The notes under the pieces are model-generated. The model was not told where the DNA came from. It was given only the letters and a program-made list of their open reading frames with translations, and ran no database searches. Shown here piece by piece: positions 68-9,457 of a stretch of DNA of 51,047 bases. The position numbers were made by a program, and so were the translations under genes. The stretch is from Nitrospirota bacterium (GTDB lineage: Bacteria > Nitrospirota > Thermodesulfovibrionia > Thermodesulfovibrionales > UBA6898), in contig SCQH01000079.1 of the NCBI GenBank assembly GCA_004321925.1, positions 1-51,047 of the forward strand. The letters run 5' to 3'. Each line of letters opens with the position of its first letter. Position 1 is the first letter of the stretch.

Positions 68-367
68 TTATTTTTTGAATACACTGAACAGCTTGTCCAG
101 TCCGCCCTTTTCAAGCTTTGCAACAGCCTCAAGCTCTCCTGCGTCAAGCCAGATCCCGTCACACTCAGAGCACTTGTCCACCTTTATCGCCTTGTAATCG
201 ATCTCAATCAGCTCCATCCCGCACTTGGGACATCTCATGTTATGAAGATCCCGAAGCTTTTTCTTTTCCTCCGCCTGCAGTCTCTTATGTTTTTCCTCCT
301 CGATCTGCTTCTTTTTTGCAAACTCTGTCCTCGCAATATACTCTGCTTCTTTCTCACTCGGTTTCAT
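68..367 (-). CDS. Small zinc-ribbon (zf-TFIIB) protein with coiled-coil N-terminus
   Basis: A 99-residue protein. Residues 15-42 are Lys/Glu-rich and likely helical or coiled-coil. Residues 44-82 form a TFIIB-type zinc ribbon with CPKC at 46-49 and CSEC at 66-69, followed by the family's DGIWLDAGELE motif. The start is set by AAGGAGG eight bases upstream of this ATG; a longer in-frame reading up to 451 has no such signal. It lies 87 bp after the TerC gene on the same strand and may be the last gene of the manganese operon. Small proteins of this family are common in bacteria and their function is generally unknown; metal or nucleic-acid binding is an inference. A relative of the same family is encoded at 50050-50433. 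Confidence 0.85.
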   Translation of the reverse strand: MKPSEKEAEYIARTEFAKKKQIEEEKHKRLQAEEKKKLRDLHNMRCPKCGMELIEIDYKAIKVDKCSECDGIWLDAGELEAVAKLEKGGLDKLFSVFKK

Positions 368-454
368 CAGTTCTTCCTCCTTTATTTGATTTTCTTTCCG
401 AATATCATGCCCGTAGTGCCGGCTGTGCAGAAGGGCCAAAACCCTGAACACCGG

Positions 455-1177
455 TCACGCAGGGTGCGCTTCTTTTTTCCTGTTGCCGGCAAGGAGATTC
501 AGCGTCTCGACCAGGCCGGAAAAGGCCATCCCGAAATAAATATACCCTTTTGGTATATGGAACTCAAGCCCCTCGGCGATGAGCGTGACCCCGACCATCA
601 GCAGAAAGCTCAGCGCCAGCATCTTCAGCGACGGATGGCGGTGGATGAACTCACTGATGGTGCCTGAAGCAACCAGCATCAGGATCAGGGCCAGCACAAC
701 CGCAGCGATCATAACGCCGATCTTCTGCGCCATGCCGATCGCCGTTATGACCGAATCGAGGGAAAAGACGATATCGAGGGCAACGATCTGAAGTATAATT
801 GCCGCAAACGACACTTTCGGCCTCACCTGGATCGTCTCCTCCGTCTTCTCAAATACATTATGGATCTCGTGGGTGCCTTTGACAAGCAGGAAAAGCCCGC
901 CGCCAAGCATGATGAGGTCCCTGACGGATATCTGGTTGCCCAGCACCGAAAAGAGCGGTGCTACCAGACTTGCCAGCCAAACCAGGCTCAGCAGAAAAAG
1001 GATGCGCGTCACCAGGGCAAGGCTGATCCCGATCGACCGCGCCTTCTGCTGCTGTTCGGCAGGCAGCTTCTGGGAAAGGATCGATATGACAACGATGTTA
1101 TCTATCCCGAGGATGATCTCCAGGGCCGTCAGTGTCGCGAGGCTAATCCATATATTCGGATCGGTCAGCCATTCCAT
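455..1177 (-). CDS. TerC family integral membrane protein
   Basis: A 240-residue polytopic membrane protein of the TerC family (YgdQ/YkoY-like). The family signature acidic residues in membrane segments are visible: EIILGIDNIVV near residues 20-30 and LDIVFSLDSVITAIG near 134-148. About seven hydrophobic segments span the protein, which matches the family. TerC proteins export Mn2+ or help metallate secreted proteins, and they are among the commonest genes behind yybP-ykoY riboswitches. The start has a GGAGGAG ribosome binding site and lies 21 bp after the UPF0016 gene, so the two are cotranscribed. Together with the aptamer at 4811-4902 this supports a manganese role. Confidence 0.92.
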   Translation of the reverse strand: MEWLTDPNIWISLATLTALEIILGIDNIVVISILSQKLPAEQQQKARSIGISLALVTRILFLLSLVWLASLVAPLFSVLGNQISVRDLIMLGGGLFLLVKGTHEIHNVFEKTEETIQVRPKVSFAAIILQIVALDIVFSLDSVITAIGMAQKIGVMIAAVVLALILMLVASGTISEFIHRHPSLKMLALSFLLMVGVTLIAEGLEFHIPKGYIYFGMAFSGLVETLNLLAGNRKKEAHPA

Positions 1178-1198: not shown

Positions 1199-1903
1199 CT
1201 AAATGTCCCTGCCGGATGCAGGGACCTCTGTTGTTTCACAGACAGGCAGCGCGCTCGCTCTTTTTGCTCCTATGCGTGCCATGATATACATGGCCGCAGC
1301 AAGCGCTGCCGCACTTGCGCCGACTACCGCAGGGCTCCAGATCTGACCCGGCAGGTTCTCAAAAAGCCCGTAGATGCCGAAGGCGATGAACAAAAGCGCG
1401 GCCCCCCATTTGATCGCCCTTTCAGGGATATGCCTGCCCATGACATTGCCGACGATGATGCCGAACCCGTTGGATATGACCATGCCGACGGTCGTCCCCA
1501 TCCAGACAGGGATGATCGTATTGTACTTAACCGCAAGGGCAACCGTAGCAAGCTGGGTCTTGTCCCCCATCTCGGCCATGAAGAAGGCCATGGTCACTGT
1601 CCAGAAAGGACTGTAATGGTACTTTTTGTCTTCACCCTCAAGGGTGTCCCCCCGGATGGTCCAGAGGCCGAATATGATGAACGAGGCCGCGGCCGCTATC
1701 TTTATCGTGGCCAGCGGCACAAGGGTCGTCAGGTAGCTCCCTGCCGCTGCCGCAAGCAGATGATTTGCGGCCGTTGCCACGAAGACGGCCCACATGACCG
1801 TCTGCCATCTGAACTTGCAGGCAAAGGCCATGGCAAGAAGCTGGGTCTTGTCCCCCATCTCCGCGAGCACGACAAATATGAGTGATGCGATAAAGGCCGT
1901 CAT
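1199..1903 (-). CDS. UPF0016/GDT1 family Mn2+ exporter-like membrane protein
   Basis: A 234-residue protein with two copies of the family hallmark EMGDKTQ, at about residues 15-21 and 111-117, each at the start of a three-helix half. This inverted-repeat, six-helix form is typical of bacterial UPF0016 (TMEM165/Gdt1) proteins, several of which (MneA, Mnx) export Mn2+; some homologues handle Ca2+. The ribosome binding site AGGAGGAG lies just before the ATG. It sits 41 bp after UPF0182 and 21 bp before TerC, inside an operon led by a yybP-ykoY riboswitch, so Mn2+ efflux is the best-supported substrate assignment. Specific transport has not been shown here. Confidence 0.92.
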   Translation of the reverse strand: MTAFIASLIFVVLAEMGDKTQLLAMAFACKFRWQTVMWAVFVATAANHLLAAAAGSYLTTLVPLATIKIAAAASFIIFGLWTIRGDTLEGEDKKYHYSPFWTVTMAFFMAEMGDKTQLATVALAVKYNTIIPVWMGTTVGMVISNGFGIIVGNVMGRHIPERAIKWGAALLFIAFGIYGLFENLPGQIWSPAVVGASAAALAAAMYIMARIGAKRASALPVCETTEVPASGRDI

Positions 1904-1944: not shown

Positions 1945-4629
1945 TTACTTCGCCATTTTCTTCAGAAGCTGCTCCAGGCGTTTAAGCTCTTCTCCATAGG
2001 CTGCCCAGTTGCCCTGTTTCTGCATCTCGACCGCCTTTTCGAAGGCCCGCATGGCCTGTTTCGAAAGGTCGCTGACAGAGACCGTTGCGTCGGCAGCTGT
2101 TTTTTCAGCAGGCCTGCCTGATGCCTTCTTGGCGCCGAACAGCCGCTGAAGCGCAAGCTCCAGGTTTTCCTCCATTACCACGTCATTTTCGTAGGCCACA
2201 ATGACCCTGCGCAATTCAGGAAGCCCGACCTTGTCGGAGGCCGCCAGATAGAGCGGCTGGACGTAGAGGAGCGAGCGTTCTATGGGGATGACGAGCAGGC
2301 TTCCCCGAATGACCTGGGAGCCGCGCTGGTCCCAGAGCGTCAGTTGCTGCGATATGTAGGAATCCTGATTTATCCGTGCGTCCACCTGCTTGGGACCGAA
2401 GATGAGCCTGTCCCTCGGGAAGGTATAGGCCAGGAGCTTGCCGTAATTCGGGCCGTCGCACCGCGCCGCAAGCCAGGCAGCAAGGTTGTCCCTCTTTGCA
2501 GGGACATACGGCAGAAGCAGAATGTACTCCTCTTTCGACCCGCCGGGGAGCTTCATGATCGTGTAATACGGGTCCATCGGTTTTTCGCCAAAGACAGGCA
2601 CCTCCCAGAGGTTCTCCTTGTTATAAAAGACCTTCGGGTCGGTCATGTGATATGAGGCGAACATGGTGGCCTGTGCCTGGAGAAGCGTCTGCGGATACCG
2701 GATATGCTGCCTCAGATCCTCAGGCATATCTGCAAGCGGGCTGAACATGCCGGGGAACAGCCGGGCATACACCCTGATAATGACATCCGACGGATCACTG
2801 ACATAAAACCCCATCGAGCCGTTGTAGGCATCGACCACGACCTTTACCGGGTTCCTGAGGTAATTGATCTGCCGGTTCAGCGGCCGTGCATAGGGCATCC
2901 GGTTTGAGGACGTGTAGGCGTCGATGATCCAGGAGAGCTTGCCTTCCTTGGTGACGACGAGATAGGGGTCCTTGTCGAACATCAGGAAGGGCGCGATCTT
3001 CCTGACCCTTTCCGTGATGTTCCTGTTGTAGAGTATCCTGCTTTCATTGCCGATGTCCGTGGACAGAAGGATCTTCTCTGTTTTGAACTTTGCGGCAAAG
3101 ACCGCCCTTTTGAACAGGGAATCGAGCCTGACACCGCCGCTGCCGCTATAGGTGGTATAGATATTTTCTCCGGACGTGGGATAGCTGAACTCAGGGACCT
3201 TTGTCCTGACGATGACATAATCGTTCGAAAGCTCACCGTAGTATATCTCGGGCCGGGTCACCTTGAAATCAACCGGGCTGACTGAGGGGATGTCCTTCAC
3301 GATGAACTCGGGAAGCCCTTCTTTGCTGATCCTGCTGACCGGTCCCATGGTTATGCCGTTGCCGTGGGTGAATATCAGCCTTTCGTTTATCCATGACCTG
3401 CTCGGAAGATCGTTGTAGGAGAGCTCCCTCGGGGAGAGCATGACCTGCCTATACTCCCCGTTTATCGAATAGCGGTCATTGTCGACATCCGTAAATTTAT
3501 AGTAGGTCCTGATCTGCTGGAGCTGGCTGAAGGTCCTCAGAAGCGGGCCGTGGTCCCAGAGCCGGATGTTCTTTATGGTGGCGTCATTTCTCTCAATGTC
3601 TTTCGCGGTCAGCTTGTAGTCTACGTCAAAGGGCGTCACCTCTATCTTTTCCAGGTCATAGCCCATGCGGGTGAACTTTATACTATGCTCTATGAAGGGC
3701 GTTTCAAGCGCAAGCTCATTCGGCGCTACCTTGAACTTCTGCAAAAAAGACGGATAGGCAACGACACCGATGAGATAGACGGCAAGCACAACAACAGGCG
3801 GGAGGACCGTCAGGCGGACCGACCCCCTGACCATGCCTATGATGAACAGGATCCCCGCTGCCGGGGTGAGGAATATCAGGATCCGGTAAAAAAAGAGCTT
3901 TGCATGGATGTCCGTGTACCCGGCGCCGGAGACGACTCCGTGAGAGGAGAATAAAAGGCTGAACGTGTCGAGATAGAACCCGAAGCCGGTACTCAGGATA
4001 AAGAGGCCGGCCAGGATACCGATATGCTTTTTTGCGTTCCGGTCAATGGAGAAGGTCCCCTCCGCCAAAGAGATGCCGCCCCGCAGAAAGTAATTTGCCG
4101 CCACCAGCAGCATGACGGCTATAAGGGTAAAACCCGCAAACCCCCAGCAGGTCTCGATCAAGGGGAGCCTGAAGAGATAAAATCCGATGTCCCTGCCGAA
4201 TATCGGGTCGCTCACGCCCATATCCAGGCTGTTCGTAAAGAGCAGGACCTCTTCCCACTTCAGCATACCCCACTGCCCTGCAAAGACGGCCAGGAGCAAA
4301 GCCGCGATGAGGGTCAGGGGCCTGATGATCCTGTCAATGTTCCCTCTGCTGAGCGGATGGATGATACCCTGTATCTCAAGAAATTCCCTCCGGGGGAAAT
4401 TGACCCTGTTCGCAATGATACTGTTAACCAGGGCAAAGGCGAGGAAGACCCCTCCAAAAAATATCCCGGTGCCTGCCTTTGCAGAGAGCGTGGTTAAAAA
4501 TACGGCCGCAAACCCTGTTTCTGCAAAGAAGAGCCAGTCACTGTAAAGGTCCTGTAAAGAAAAGCTCAGAGGCAGGGCCACAAAGAGAAGCACTGCGATG
4601 ATCAGGTACTTCTTCCTGGTCAATGCCAC
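1945..4629 (-). CDS. UPF0182 (COG1615) large membrane protein
   Basis: An 894-residue protein of the UPF0182 family, whose function is not established. The first third holds about seven hydrophobic segments (the first near residues 8-26, the last near 255-300); the remainder is a large hydrophilic domain expected outside the membrane, with a Lys/Glu/Gln-rich helical tail. Length matches the family. The frame opens with GTG at 4629; a TTG at 4623 overlaps the stop of the upstream small ORF as TTGA and is an equally good start by translational coupling. It is the first large gene downstream of an Mn2+ riboswitch and is followed at short spacing by UPF0016 and TerC, so a link to Mn homeostasis or metallation at the cell envelope is inferred from position only. 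Confidence 0.88.
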   Translation of the reverse strand: MALTRKKYLIIAVLLFVALPLSFSLQDLYSDWLFFAETGFAAVFLTTLSAKAGTGIFFGGVFLAFALVNSIIANRVNFPRREFLEIQGIIHPLSRGNIDRIIRPLTLIAALLLAVFAGQWGMLKWEEVLLFTNSLDMGVSDPIFGRDIGFYLFRLPLIETCWGFAGFTLIAVMLLVAANYFLRGGISLAEGTFSIDRNAKKHIGILAGLFILSTGFGFYLDTFSLLFSSHGVVSGAGYTDIHAKLFFYRILIFLTPAAGILFIIGMVRGSVRLTVLPPVVVLAVYLIGVVAYPSFLQKFKVAPNELALETPFIEHSIKFTRMGYDLEKIEVTPFDVDYKLTAKDIERNDATIKNIRLWDHGPLLRTFSQLQQIRTYYKFTDVDNDRYSINGEYRQVMLSPRELSYNDLPSRSWINERLIFTHGNGITMGPVSRISKEGLPEFIVKDIPSVSPVDFKVTRPEIYYGELSNDYVIVRTKVPEFSYPTSGENIYTTYSGSGGVRLDSLFKRAVFAAKFKTEKILLSTDIGNESRILYNRNITERVRKIAPFLMFDKDPYLVVTKEGKLSWIIDAYTSSNRMPYARPLNRQINYLRNPVKVVVDAYNGSMGFYVSDPSDVIIRVYARLFPGMFSPLADMPEDLRQHIRYPQTLLQAQATMFASYHMTDPKVFYNKENLWEVPVFGEKPMDPYYTIMKLPGGSKEEYILLLPYVPAKRDNLAAWLAARCDGPNYGKLLAYTFPRDRLIFGPKQVDARINQDSYISQQLTLWDQRGSQVIRGSLLVIPIERSLLYVQPLYLAASDKVGLPELRRVIVAYENDVVMEENLELALQRLFGAKKASGRPAEKTAADATVSVSDLSKQAMRAFEKAVEMQKQGNWAAYGEELKRLEQLLKKMAK

Positions 4630-5008: not shown

Positions 5009-5632
5009 TCATTCCACCTTCTCGAACTTGTCTTTGCCGGGACTGTAAGCCCTTATACTGCCGGTCCTGATGTCATAAAACCATCCATGGAGATATAGGC
5101 TGCCTTCCTGCAAGGCCTGAACAACGAATGGATATGTCTGGATGTTTCTGAGCTGCATAAGAATATTTTCCTCTTCAAGGATCATCTCACAGGACTCGAT
5201 CGATGTCTGAGGATAGAACTTTTCGACAATCCGCCTGACCGGCATTGCCAATTGCAGCCATTCCCACAGATGGGGCATTTGTGAGAATTCCTTTTCATCG
5301 CTCAGCAAGGCTTTCATTGCGCCGCAGTTGGAATGTCCGCAGATGATGATGTCCTTTACCTTCAGACTCAGGACCGCAAATTCGATCGCTGCTGCGACAC
5401 TGTTCTTATCCTTGATTGCCTCATAGGGTGGAACAATATTTCCCACGTTCCTCACAATAAAGAGTTCACCCGGCCTGCTTTGCGTGACGAGATTGGGATC
5501 GACCCGTGAGTCTGAACAGGTGATAAAAAGCACCTCCGGCTCCTGACCTTCGGAAAGGCGCTTAAAGAAGTCCTCTTCCTTCTTGAAATAAGCCTCCCCG
5601 AATGTATGGATACCCTTATACAATTTTTCCAT
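5009..5632 (-). CDS. Beta-class carbonic anhydrase
   Basis: A 207-residue beta-carbonic anhydrase, interconverting CO2 and HCO3-. Zinc ligands and catalytic dyad are visible: C39, D41 and R43 in CSDSRVDP, and H100 and C103 in CGHSNCGAMKAL. No signal peptide is seen, so it is cytoplasmic. Length is normal. AGGAG lies directly after the T-run of the upstream terminator and just before the ATG. The gene is downstream of pycA-pycB on the same strand, separated by a complete Mn2+ riboswitch, which is unusual for this enzyme. A supply of bicarbonate to pyruvate carboxylase is the obvious linking role, but is inferred. Confidence 0.95.
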   Translation of the reverse strand: MEKLYKGIHTFGEAYFKKEEDFFKRLSEGQEPEVLFITCSDSRVDPNLVTQSRPGELFIVRNVGNIVPPYEAIKDKNSVAAAIEFAVLSLKVKDIIICGHSNCGAMKALLSDEKEFSQMPHLWEWLQLAMPVRRIVEKFYPQTSIESCEMILEEENILMQLRNIQTYPFVVQALQEGSLYLHGWFYDIRTGSIRAYSPGKDKFEKVE

Positions 5633-5642
5633 GTATCTCCTG

Positions 5643-5700
5643 AAAAAAGACCCTTACCGCAATCTGTGCGCATGAATGCCTATCAGCTGCGATAAAGGTC
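5643..5700 (-). terminator. Terminator of the carbonic anhydrase riboswitch
   Basis: On the minus strand GACCTTTATCGCA (5700-5688) pairs over 13 bp, with two G-U pairs, with TGCGGTAAGGGTC, followed by six T (5648-5643). The 5' arm is also the 3' closing strand of the aptamer at 5692-5764, the same mutually exclusive layout as at 4758-4820. The carbonic anhydrase ribosome binding site follows immediately. Confidence 0.88.
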
Positions 5701-5764
5701 GTGCCTGCTGAACAGCCGGTCGAGAACGTGTTGACGACATCCTCGCATACTGCTGCTCCCCTTT
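5692..5764 (-). promoter_or_regulatory. Second yybP-ykoY manganese riboswitch, before carbonic anhydrase
   Basis: The minus strand reads AAAGGGGAGCAGC (5764-5752), then GTCGTCAACACG in the middle and GCACGACCTTTAT at the 3' end. ATAAAGG and CCTTTAT form a 7-bp P1. The elements match those of the first riboswitch in order and sequence, with a shorter variable arm. The aptamer begins about 22 bases after the pycB stop codon. Only a weak promoter (AAGACA, 18 bases, TATCAT at 5770-5765) is visible, so the switch may act on read-through from pycA-pycB, on its own start site, or both. Confidence 0.85.
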
Positions 5765-5785: not shown

Positions 5786-7825
5786 CTATGTCTTTTCTAT
5801 AACAAAAAGCAGCTGTCCCTCCTGGACCGTATCGTTCAGCTTTACGCAGACTTCCGAGATCTGCCCCTCAAATGACGCGATGATCGCGTTTTCCATCTTC
5901 ATTGCCTCGAGGTTGGCGATCTCTTCTCCCTTATGCACGATGTCGCCCGCCCTGATCGCGCCACGCTCCGGATTGCCGATCCTCCAGATATTGCCGTTGA
6001 TCGGCGCCCCGATATCCTGCGGCCCTTTTGCCATGCGTATCTCGACCTTCTTCGCGCGCGGCGTGTCGACCGAATAGACCCTTGTCTTGTTATTGACGCG
6101 CATGACGACATGGATGATGCCTTCATACTCGGCCCCGACAGACACCAGCTCGATGGTATAGGGCTTGCCCCGCAGTTCGAAGTCAACCCTGTCTCCGGCC
6201 TTTCTGAGCCCGTTCCTCCAGACATCTGTGGGCAGGACCAGCGGGGCTTCGCCGAACTTGTCCCTGAACTCGATCATGCTGAGCGCATCCTTGGGATGCA
6301 TGAGATAGAGGATAAACTCCTCCCCTGTCGGTACCCTCCCAATATGCTCAGTAAGCTCCTGCCTCGGGCCCCCGATATCTTCATTACCGAGCGAATCAAG
6401 AGGAGACAGTTCTTTCCGTTCAGACATCTTCTTTTCCCACTCATCGCCGAAGGTGCTCCGGTAGACCCATTCGTCAGGCCATCCCATAGGCAGCCTGCCG
6501 TAATTGCCGAGGAGCATGTTCTTGAAATCTCCGGGTGCGTTTCTCAGGAGCGTGAGCAGCTCCTGCTGCTCGGCTTCGGTCATGGCCCTGAGGTCCTGCG
6601 CCTTTTCCTCCACGAAACGTTCGATCAGATCGATGATATGCCTGACACCTGCGTCACCTCTCTCCTTTGCGTAGCGGTTCACAATACCGCTGCAGGTGAC
6701 CCAGGTGATCTGCGATCCGGGAGTAACATCAAAATATTTGACGATCCGGTTATATAACGACATGACCTTCAGGATCGAAGGCATGAGATGAAGGAACTCA
6801 CCCTTCTCCGCCTGCTCAAAGGAACTCGGGAACGCCCCTCCGGGCATCTTGTGGCGGGTGACTGTATGATCAAAGCCCTTGAACGGCGACTCGGCCCATT
6901 CATAATGACCTATCCATTCGCGCACTTTCTGTACGGCCTTTTCAGCTTCGCTCCTTACCAGATGGACCGGAATGCCGGATTCTTCAAAATAGGCCTGCAC
7001 GCTCAGGATCGGTGAATGTCCGTAGAAGCGGACAAGGGAGTCTTCCTGTACATCGAATATTTTTGCTCCTGCCTGAGCTGCAGCAAGGAGGGCCGGCATG
7101 GCAAGGCCGTCAGTAATATGACGGTGATACTGCAGGACAAGGTCCGGATATTTCTGCTTGATGGCATCAACAAGGCTGGCTATCCGCCTGATGTCACCGA
7201 CACCCGCCATATCCTTGATACAGAGAACTATCTCGTCGGTCCCGGAGCAGAGATCTACAATGTCACGGACAACTGAAAGATAGTATTCGTTTGTTGTCCA
7301 GTCTGCAGAGGTGAACGATATGGTCGGTTCGAACAGTCTTCCCCTTTTCAGCACAACCTCGGCGACTGAGCGCATGTTCCTGACATCGTTCAGGAATGAA
7401 AAGCATCTCCAGACATCTATATCCACATTCGCAACGACATACTCAATAATGTTCCTGGGATATGGCCTGTATCCAAAGAGGTTCGTTTCCCGGATGAGGG
7501 TCTGCAGGAGAACATTCGGCATGAGTTCCCTGAGTATGGCAACCTCTTCAAAGGGGGTCTCGCGCCGGTTCATGATGCCGACGTGCCAGCGGGCCCCTCC
7601 GTGGCATTCCGCACTGAAAAGTCCCATATTATTATAATAGGGAGCGAGGGTCTTGAGGTCGTATATCCGGTGACGGTTCTTGAAATCCGACTGCCCGGCA
7701 TCCCTCATACCCACGTTCGTAAAACATACTCCCTGCAGGGACCGCACTGCAGCAACGATCTCCTTTGGGGTCATGCCAGGCCTGACAAAATCTGTAGGCG
7801 CTGTTCCTCTTTTCATGGTGTCCAT
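5786..7825 (-). CDS. pycB: Pyruvate carboxylase subunit B (carboxyltransferase plus biotin carrier)
   Basis: A protein of about 679 residues like PycB or oxaloacetate decarboxylase alpha. The N-terminal two thirds is the metal-dependent carboxyltransferase barrel with the associated PYC_OADA-type helical domain; the C-terminus is a biotinyl domain with EAMKMEN, whose lysine carries biotin. With the adjacent biotin carboxylase subunit it would carboxylate pyruvate to oxaloacetate using HCO3-. The ATG at 7825 has GAGG seven bases upstream; a GTG at 7843 overlapping the pycA stop is an alternative. No sodium-pump beta or gamma subunits follow, which favours carboxylase over decarboxylase. The barrel metal in this family is usually Zn2+, Mn2+ or Co2+. 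Confidence 0.9.
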   Translation of the reverse strand: MDTMKRGTAPTDFVRPGMTPKEIVAAVRSLQGVCFTNVGMRDAGQSDFKNRHRIYDLKTLAPYYNNMGLFSAECHGGARWHVGIMNRRETPFEEVAILRELMPNVLLQTLIRETNLFGYRPYPRNIIEYVVANVDIDVWRCFSFLNDVRNMRSVAEVVLKRGRLFEPTISFTSADWTTNEYYLSVVRDIVDLCSGTDEIVLCIKDMAGVGDIRRIASLVDAIKQKYPDLVLQYHRHITDGLAMPALLAAAQAGAKIFDVQEDSLVRFYGHSPILSVQAYFEESGIPVHLVRSEAEKAVQKVREWIGHYEWAESPFKGFDHTVTRHKMPGGAFPSSFEQAEKGEFLHLMPSILKVMSLYNRIVKYFDVTPGSQITWVTCSGIVNRYAKERGDAGVRHIIDLIERFVEEKAQDLRAMTEAEQQELLTLLRNAPGDFKNMLLGNYGRLPMGWPDEWVYRSTFGDEWEKKMSERKELSPLDSLGNEDIGGPRQELTEHIGRVPTGEEFILYLMHPKDALSMIEFRDKFGEAPLVLPTDVWRNGLRKAGDRVDFELRGKPYTIELVSVGAEYEGIIHVVMRVNNKTRVYSVDTPRAKKVEIRMAKGPQDIGAPINGNIWRIGNPERGAIRAGDIVHKGEEIANLEAMKMENAIIASFEGQISEVCVKLNDTVQEGQLLFVIEKT

Positions 7826-7833
7826 TTTCGGCC

Positions 7834-9291
7834 TCACATCCACGTCTGGGGGCCGAGGGCGGATATCTCCGCAACGTACCGCGCGACCTTCAGGGCCTCG
7901 TCTTCGCTGCTTTCGTCCCTGAACATGGATATCAGCTCGTCCATATGCTCCTCGATAAACCGGGTCGAAAATTCTCCTGAAATAAAGGAAGGGTGCCTGA
8001 TAATGCTCAGCAGCAACGGCGCCAGGGTCTTTACCCCTTCGATCCTGAGGTTCCTCGAAAGCGAGCGGTCCATAGCCCGTATGGCATCTTCCCTGTCTGC
8101 CCCTGCTGTTATAAGCAGCATGAACAGAGAATCATAATACGGCGGTATATCAGCCCCTTCGTATACTCCTGATGCGACCCTCACTCCCGGACCCATCGGC
8201 ACCTGCAGGCGGGTGATCTTGCCGAAGGAGGGACTGAAATTCTTGGGATCTTCAGCGTTCAGCCTCACCTCGAGCGCCCACCGGTTAGGATGGATATCGG
8301 ATTGTTTGAACGGCAGAGGCCTGCCCATGGCAACATCGAGCATGATGCCGACAATGTCAAGGCCGGTGATAAGTTCGGTGATGCCGTGCTCGACCTGAAG
8401 TCTGGTATTGACCTCAAGGAAGTAAAACTTCTTCGTGGGCGCGTCAAAAATGAACTCGACCGTTCCTGCGGTCGTGTAGCCTATCTCGCGCATGAGACGA
8501 GTCGCCGTATAACAGATCTCCTGCCTCAGGCCCTCATCCAGCGACGGGGATGGGGCCTCCTCAATGATCTTCTGGTTGCGCCTCTGGAGGGTGCATTCCC
8601 TTTCATAGAGATGAACCACATTGCCCTGCGAATCAGCAACGATCTGCACCTCTATATGCCTTCCGCGCTCTATATATTTTTCGACAAGCACCGTCTCGTC
8701 GCCGAAAGACTTCTTTGACTCTGACCTCACCTGACTCAGCGCCTGGCCGAGCTGGTCGTCGCGCTCCACCTTCAGCATACCTTTTCCTCCGCCGCCGGCA
8801 GATGCCTTGATCATGACCGGGAAGCTCACCTGCTCCTGCTCCATCCATGTCCTGATCTGGTCGATGTTCGTCACGTTGCTGATGCCGGGTATCGTCGGCA
8901 CATGGGCCTTTATGGCAAGGGCCTTGGCCTCTATCTTGTCGCCCATCATGCTTATGACCTCAGGCGAGGGACCTATCCAGACAAGACCGGCATCGATCAC
9001 CTTCCGGGCAAAGACATGGTTTTCGGCCAGGAAGCCCCAGCCCGGATGCACTGCATCCGAACCGCTGCTGCGTGCCGCGTCAATGATCCTGTCCATGTTG
9101 AGATAGGACTCGACCGGCGGCGCCTCGCCGATATGGACCGCAGTATCCGCCATGAACACGTGATGCGCCAGCCTGTCTGGCGTGCTGTAGACAGCCGTGG
9201 TCCCGATCTTCCTGTCACGGCAGGTATGCATGATCCGGACAGCGGGCACGCCCCTGTTTGCTATGAGAACTTTATGAATATCCCTGGTCAT
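7834..9291 (-). CDS. pycA: Pyruvate carboxylase subunit A (biotin carboxylase)
   Basis: A 485-residue ATP-grasp biotin carboxylase. It starts with HKVLIANRG, typical of the pre-ATP-grasp domain, contains the glycine-rich ATP loop KASAGGGGKGM, and ends with the biotin carboxylase C-terminal domain. It carboxylates biotin on PycB using ATP and HCO3-. The ATG at 9291 fits family start points; a TTG at 9327 would add 12 residues and has no better signal. The stop overlaps the pycB start region, so the subunits are translationally linked. AccC of acetyl-CoA carboxylase is a close alternative, excluded mainly by the pycB neighbour. Confidence 0.9.
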   Translation of the reverse strand: MTRDIHKVLIANRGVPAVRIMHTCRDRKIGTTAVYSTPDRLAHHVFMADTAVHIGEAPPVESYLNMDRIIDAARSSGSDAVHPGWGFLAENHVFARKVIDAGLVWIGPSPEVISMMGDKIEAKALAIKAHVPTIPGISNVTNIDQIRTWMEQEQVSFPVMIKASAGGGGKGMLKVERDDQLGQALSQVRSESKKSFGDETVLVEKYIERGRHIEVQIVADSQGNVVHLYERECTLQRRNQKIIEEAPSPSLDEGLRQEICYTATRLMREIGYTTAGTVEFIFDAPTKKFYFLEVNTRLQVEHGITELITGLDIVGIMLDVAMGRPLPFKQSDIHPNRWALEVRLNAEDPKNFSPSFGKITRLQVPMGPGVRVASGVYEGADIPPYYDSLFMLLITAGADREDAIRAMDRSLSRNLRIEGVKTLAPLLLSIIRHPSFISGEFSTRFIEEHMDELISMFRDESSEDEALKVARYVAEISALGPQTWM

Positions 9292-9457
9292 TTGGCTTGC
9301 CCCTGTATTGGCCCATATTTTACACAATTGACATTTTCAAAACAAATCAATTCTCTACTATAACGACTCAGGGCAACGCGATGCCGGTCACCTGCTCCAT
9401 GACTTCGCAGGGGGTTGGAAAACGATGTTGACATATTCTCCCACATGCGGCAATATT

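Follow-up and report, generated by a model that had tools for sequence, protein, structure and literature searches.

A beta-carbonic anhydrase gene behind a diverged homologue of the yybP-ykoY manganese riboswitch in Thermodesulfovibrionales

Introduction

The locus described here raises the question of whether a zinc enzyme can be a target of a manganese riboswitch. Riboswitches of the yybP-ykoY class are mostly found before Mn exporters and TerC proteins. In B. subtilis yybP/ykoY, P1 overlaps an intrinsic terminator, and expression is ON with Mn2+. The Mn2+ riboswitches of L. lactis and X. oryzae also control transcription and are ON with Mn2+ (PMC6754395, PMC9190785), and in the solved structures an adenosine of L3 reads Mn2+ (PMC6754395). 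In E. coli, where the alx Mn riboswitch has been experimentally established, the Mn riboswitches answer to Mn2+ plus alkaline pH (PMC9603457). The E. coli cytoplasm becomes alkaline upon Mn shock, and the mntP riboswitch binds Mn2+ 17- to 22-fold more tightly at alkaline pH (PMC9603457).

We analyzed a stretch of 51,047 nucleotides (the window), which makes up all of contig C95 in a Nitrospirota genome of 3.2 Mb and 120 contigs and which named homologues and kinship assign to the order Thermodesulfovibrionales. The initial annotation had placed a second yybP-ykoY aptamer directly before a beta-carbonic anhydrase (CA) gene and had suggested a Mn-dependent control of bicarbonate supply that it regarded as not described before. 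The latter agrees with our literature search, in which no paper linking a yybP-ykoY or Mn riboswitch to carbonic anhydrase was found, although a supplement outside this search could list CA.

Results

Organization of the locus

The genes of interest are all located on the minus strand in the order pycA-pycB, element 2, CA, element 1, UPF0182, GDT1/UPF0016, TerC, and zinc ribbon. Their features, from pycA to CA, are as follows:

7834-9327, minus strand: PycA-type biotin carboxylase subunit (PF02786, PF00289, PF02785)
5786-7843, minus strand: PycB-type carboxylase/biotin subunit (PF02436, PF00364)
5765-5690, minus strand: element 2, diverged yybP-ykoY (Mn2+) aptamer homologue (cmsearch with model R1, column comparison)
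5765-5760 with 5698-5693, minus strand: P1 of element 2
5759-5754, minus strand: L1 5' strand of element 2
5734-5728, minus strand: L3 of element 2, UCAACAC, with the invariant A at 5732
5700-5643, minus strand: intrinsic terminator of element 2 (5' arm 5700-5688, 3' arm 5661-5649, T-run 5648-5643; sequence and fold)
5641-5637, minus strand: ribosome-binding site AGGAG of CA (sequence)
5632-5009, minus strand: beta-carbonic anhydrase, 207 aa, complete (Pfam PF00484, Pro_CA, 1.1e-49; PDB 5swc, 4.9e-57)

Element 2 starts 20 nt past the stop codon of pycB, the probable source of the transcript through it, and a gap of 57 nt separates it from CA, the start codon of which is at 5632. The ribosome site lies directly 3' of the T-run, as initially annotated, and the gene immediately downstream is indeed a beta-CA. 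The motifs CxDxR and HxxC (ITCSDSRVDP and GHSNCGAM) align with those of 5swc, the nearest solved structure. The metal-ligand residues are present, and zinc is the predicted active-site metal. The protein thus shares family and catalytic motifs with the beta-CAs of PF00484 but differs from them in its place in a Mn-riboswitch operon, a regulation not found for this family in the papers searched.

The second part of the locus contains the following features:

4941-4913, minus strand: promoter of element 1 (TTGACA 4941-4936, -10-like GATAAG; sequence; relatives as a rule have TTGAC 36-43 nt upstream)
4903-4808, minus strand: element 1, intact yybP-ykoY aptamer (105.5 bits with R1; its minimum free energy fold is the aptamer fold)
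4818-4758, minus strand: terminator of element 1 (stem 4818-4766, T-run 4765-4758; sequence; fold of -28.0 kcal/mol)
1945-4629, minus strand: UPF0182 membrane protein, encoded by the first long gene downstream of element 1 (PF03699, 3.2e-287)
1199-1903, minus strand: GDT1/UPF0016 divalent cation/proton antiporter family, Mn exporter type (PF01169, 6e-43)
455-1177, minus strand: TerC family, Alx/MeeY-like (PF03741, 2.2e-47)
68-451, minus strand: small zinc-ribbon protein, recurrent in the same riboswitch operons (PF13453, 2.4e-15)

A motif scan of the whole genome detected only these two aptamer copies, and the reversed pattern occurred 0 times. Between the terminator of element 1 and the GTG start of UPF0182 there is an ORF of 37 codons (4733-4623) with a good ribosome site, which overlaps this GTG start, so that translational coupling is possible. 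This ORF is not conserved, being absent from the other UPF0182 loci. Elsewhere in the window, at 24643-24566 (minus strand), a c-di-GMP-I-GGC riboswitch was detected with 66.7 bits.

Assignment of the elements to the yybP-ykoY class

A scan with RF00080 (Rfam 15), suggested in the initial annotation as the check on class membership, revealed no match to element 2 even at E<=1, and the gathering score was not reached. The same scan likewise missed E. coli alx, a proven Mn riboswitch; the negative result is therefore uninformative and cannot decide on element 2, and the Rfam score is not a valid criterion here. Two near relatives scored 22-26 bits with RF00080 (cut-off 45). The RF00080 model (177 positions) missed alx and nearly all Nitrospirota members tested, and it does not treat P1 as a helix in the alignments shown.

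A covariance model, R1, was built from 16 relatives and the aptamer structure, with element 2 and alx left out. Element 2 scored 38.7 bits (E 1.6e-8, E-values being rough) and alx 34 bits (E 4e-6), both from outside the training set; element 1, which was part of it, scored 105.5 bits. Across 597 kb of other loci, sequences other than real aptamers scored 16 bits at best. A blastn search with an approximate alx-like query gave no match, and the real alx region was used instead. E. coli alx has in common with the Nitrospirota elements the L1 strand AAAGGGGAGUA, the core AUCG-UCANNAC-P3-CGGU, and the 3' strand GAGACCUU.

Two-sided changes were found in 14 of the 30 pairs of the seed and, over 82 distinct sequences, in 27 of the 30, with a covariation score of 0.388 vs. 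0.181 after shuffling (0/500); this larger alignment was fitted to the model and leans towards its structure. The 16 CA-linked aptamers alone, without that of the window, also displayed compensatory changes (0.231 vs. 0.114 shuffled, 0/500). By homology, elements 1 and 2 are real members of the yybP-ykoY class, as judged from these comparisons; the claimed second aptamer is confirmed, though in a form degraded relative to its relatives.

State of element 2

The 5' arm of the terminator of element 2 contains the 3' strand of P1, which forms a platform where the terminator and P1 are mutually exclusive. The overlap that had been claimed is thus present; the terminator is strong (-25.4 kcal/mol) but contains two G-U pairs and is not perfect. 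Also retained are L3 with the invariant Mn-sensing adenosine (UCA) and its UCG/CGG flanks.

Other parts of the core have changed. Element 2 has no P4, a helix that aligns in the 81 other copies, with no more than two of them incomplete there. At L1 position 5755 it carries C (T to C), where 79 of the 81 other aligned aptamers have U, and at position 5701 it carries C (A to C), where the others have 78 A, 3 G, and no C. The conserved L1 strands GGAGUA and AAGA, which occur in element 1 and nearly all relatives, are replaced by GGAGCA and ACGA in element 2, and we therefore treat this copy as a diverged homologue rather than a proven working member. Its best fold is not the aptamer: GAGCAGC pairs with GCUGUUC and L1 is buried (-22.7 kcal/mol for the free fold vs. 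-14.9 kcal/mol with L1 and L3 kept open). Its R1 score is the second-lowest among the CA-linked copies, and it alone of them misses a whole helix. The copy in the window is the most eroded of the CA-linked aptamers. Because of the loss of P4 and of two L1 core bases, its response to Mn is probably diminished or absent; the chances that a response to Mn2+ is still present are about even.

No TTGAC or other -35 box was found upstream of element 2, while most relatives have TTGAC 36-43 nt upstream; in one relative (G070) the promoter stretch is likewise gone though the aptamer is intact. With no visible promoter of its own, element 2 would serve as an internal attenuator of the pyc operon. A sigma-70 scan yielded one weak site (5794-5765), which was rejected as no better than chance, and its transcription start would fall inside P1. 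When the family was searched at the DNA level for an orthologue of element 2, matches were confined to the conserved 5' 40 nt of other aptamers.

Recurrence of the aptamer-CA pairing

The pairing is not confined to the window. In 176 genomes of the order Thermodesulfovibrionales, we detected 79 aptamers in 59 genomes (~0.45 per genome). Half of the close CA orthologues in the order (13 of 26, sharing 60-76% identity) lie behind an aptamer: ten directly (G000, G007, G036, G049, G066, G069, G070, G071, G082, and G086) and three via htpX or its remnant (G141, G142, and G161). Additional cases, two of them named contigs, are G144 (partial CA), G386, L054, and L056, the last labelled Deltaproteobacteria. 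By our arithmetic, aptamers placed randomly before ~2,500 genes would precede ~0.005 of the 26 CA genes, which, as the genomes are related, are not independent trials. The aptamer-CA link is more than chance.

Several layouts were found: pycB-RS-CA, RS-htpX-CA, RS-htpX-purE-CA, RS-CA-zinc ribbon-P-type ATPase, and RS-CA-band 7-zinc ribbon, where RS is the riboswitch. The first occurs in eight genomes besides the window; in one of these, G144, RS and CA are separated by an htpX scar. CA often heads operons that also encode exporter-type P-type ATPases. Internal htpX sequence is deleted in G161 and G144 (L127, L150), where a scar ORF remains and CA has come up to the aptamer. These scar ORFs keep the htpX start and/or end codons. 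In G017 (L011/L135), the CA gene behind the aptamer and terminator breaks off ~24 codons from its start.

The overlap of P1 with the terminator was present in all CA-linked cases examined. In many genomes of the lineage, intact aptamers with compensatory changes, perfect terminators, and promoters are located directly upstream of CA orthologues. No aptamer precedes the other half of the orthologues, which includes the two from the genus of the window (G003 and G004), and no significant aptamer relics were found before aptamer-less CA genes. In a tree of the sampled CA orthologues, those linked to an aptamer are not monophyletic; the branch of the window is left open. At the family level, these comparisons argue strongly that CA belongs to the Mn-riboswitch regulon of the lineage.

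The Nitrospirota regulon

The first recognised gene after 103 aptamers of the phylum encoded HtpX in 36 cases, a zinc ribbon in 13, a P-type ATPase in 12, CA in 11, GDT1 in nine, UPF0182 and UPF0114 in four each, and TerC and band 7 in three each (other or contig end, eight). With 11 of the 103, CA is a regular rather than an exotic member of the regulon. The membrane protease HtpX (M48) is the commonest product encoded behind Nitrospirota Mn riboswitches, htpX often being followed by purE (L139, L142, L143, L201, L202, L205, and others); the papers searched contained no description of htpX as a Mn-riboswitch target. Another type of aptamer, found before htpX (L012:370-481, L014:1497-1599, L185, and L192), has additional sequence between L1 and P3, which may form a P2 helix like that of a four-way junction.

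Discussion

Comparison of these loci suggests a known riboswitch class with CA as a new conserved target. In B. subtilis yybP/ykoY and L. lactis yoaB, control is likewise transcriptional, with P1 overlapping an intrinsic terminator; the Nitrospirota systems differ from them in the target gene and, in most copies, in a three-way junction with no P2 between P1 and P3. E. coli alx precedes a TerC-family exporter, whereas in the window the target is a zinc enzyme, behind a copy without P4 and two L1 bases. With a probability of about 0.8, in our estimate, element 2 descends from a transcriptional Mn2+ ON-riboswitch that put beta-CA into the manganese-stress regulon of Thermodesulfovibrionales. Mn2+ binding, the ON direction, and the physiological use we infer by analogy with the characterized members. 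In the ancestral form, which relatives would still have, the P1 3' strand would join the terminator when Mn2+ is absent, and transcription would stop before CA. Mn2+ bound between L1 and L3 would dock L1 on L3, hold P1, and block the terminator, so that CA is made. In several relatives, the same operon would at the same time yield zinc-ribbon and band-7/UPF0114 proteins and an exporter-type P-type ATPase. In the genome studied here, element 2 could probably work only as an attenuator of pycAB read-through. The initially proposed Mn-riboswitch control of CA is well supported for the lineage by the intact aptamers, compensatory changes, terminators, and promoters 5' of CA; for the window copy, which has lost core features, it is uncertain, and the link to bicarbonate supply we infer.

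What element 2 still does is a closer matter. It may be a remnant that no longer senses Mn2+, its terminator merely lowering CA relative to pycAB, or the alternative hairpin keeping P1 closed and CA constitutively on. We give this nearly the same weight as its opposite, since the missing P4, the two L1 core changes, the non-aptamer minimum free energy fold, the absent promoter, and the second-lowest score among CA-linked copies all point to it, while G003 and G004 keep CA without any aptamer and G017, with its aptamer kept and CA truncated, represents decay from the other side. Yet element 2 still has P1, L3 with its invariant A, and a strong overlapping terminator, and neutral decay would not be expected to spare so much for long. 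That the P4-less element 2 is a functional, re-tuned minimal riboswitch and CA a working part of Mn2+ detoxification appears doubtful. In such a case, Mn2+, together with an alkaline cytosol, would switch CA on; of the products of CO2 hydration, protons would go to Mn2+/H+ exchangers and bicarbonate to Mn2+ complexation and carboxylases.

Because CA often leads operons with other regulon members, exporters among them, it may also merely lie between the riboswitch and the downstream exporter, zinc-ribbon, or htpX genes that it serves. A zinc-ribbon gene, and sometimes a P-type ATPase gene, is indeed located 3' of CA, and in G058, a genome without CA from the genus of G036, G049, and G066, the same aptamer precedes the zinc-ribbon gene. 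We consider this explanation unlikely, as CA leads several different operon layouts, was retained through the htpX deletions, and recurs behind the aptamer in the Deltaproteobacteria-labelled contig L056, and the exporter genes of the window have their own element 1. Only the lack of an RF00080 match even at E<=1 speaks for a chance motif or another RNA class; RF00080 misses alx too, and the R1 scores, covariation, and gene context (TerC, GDT1, P-type ATPase) agree with a Mn riboswitch, which makes such an origin highly improbable.

Under the preferred reading, that of descent from a Mn2+ ON-riboswitch, the most likely use of CA would be to offset the disturbance of pH and bicarbonate that accompanies Mn2+ overload and Mn2+/H+ exchange. 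Hydration of CO2 to protons and bicarbonate could counter alkalization and feed cation/H+ antiporters and the neighbouring biotin carboxylase. As RF00080 misses a proven member, surveys relying on it may undercount the class. The internal deletions of htpX represent a visible route by which a riboswitch acquires a new first gene. Together with the more frequent HtpX and PurE, CA as a target hints, from the genomic side, that Mn2+ stress and the balance of pH and bicarbonate may be one response in these bacteria, an extension that matches the alkalization of E. coli by Mn shock and the pH effect on the mntP riboswitch (PMC9603457).
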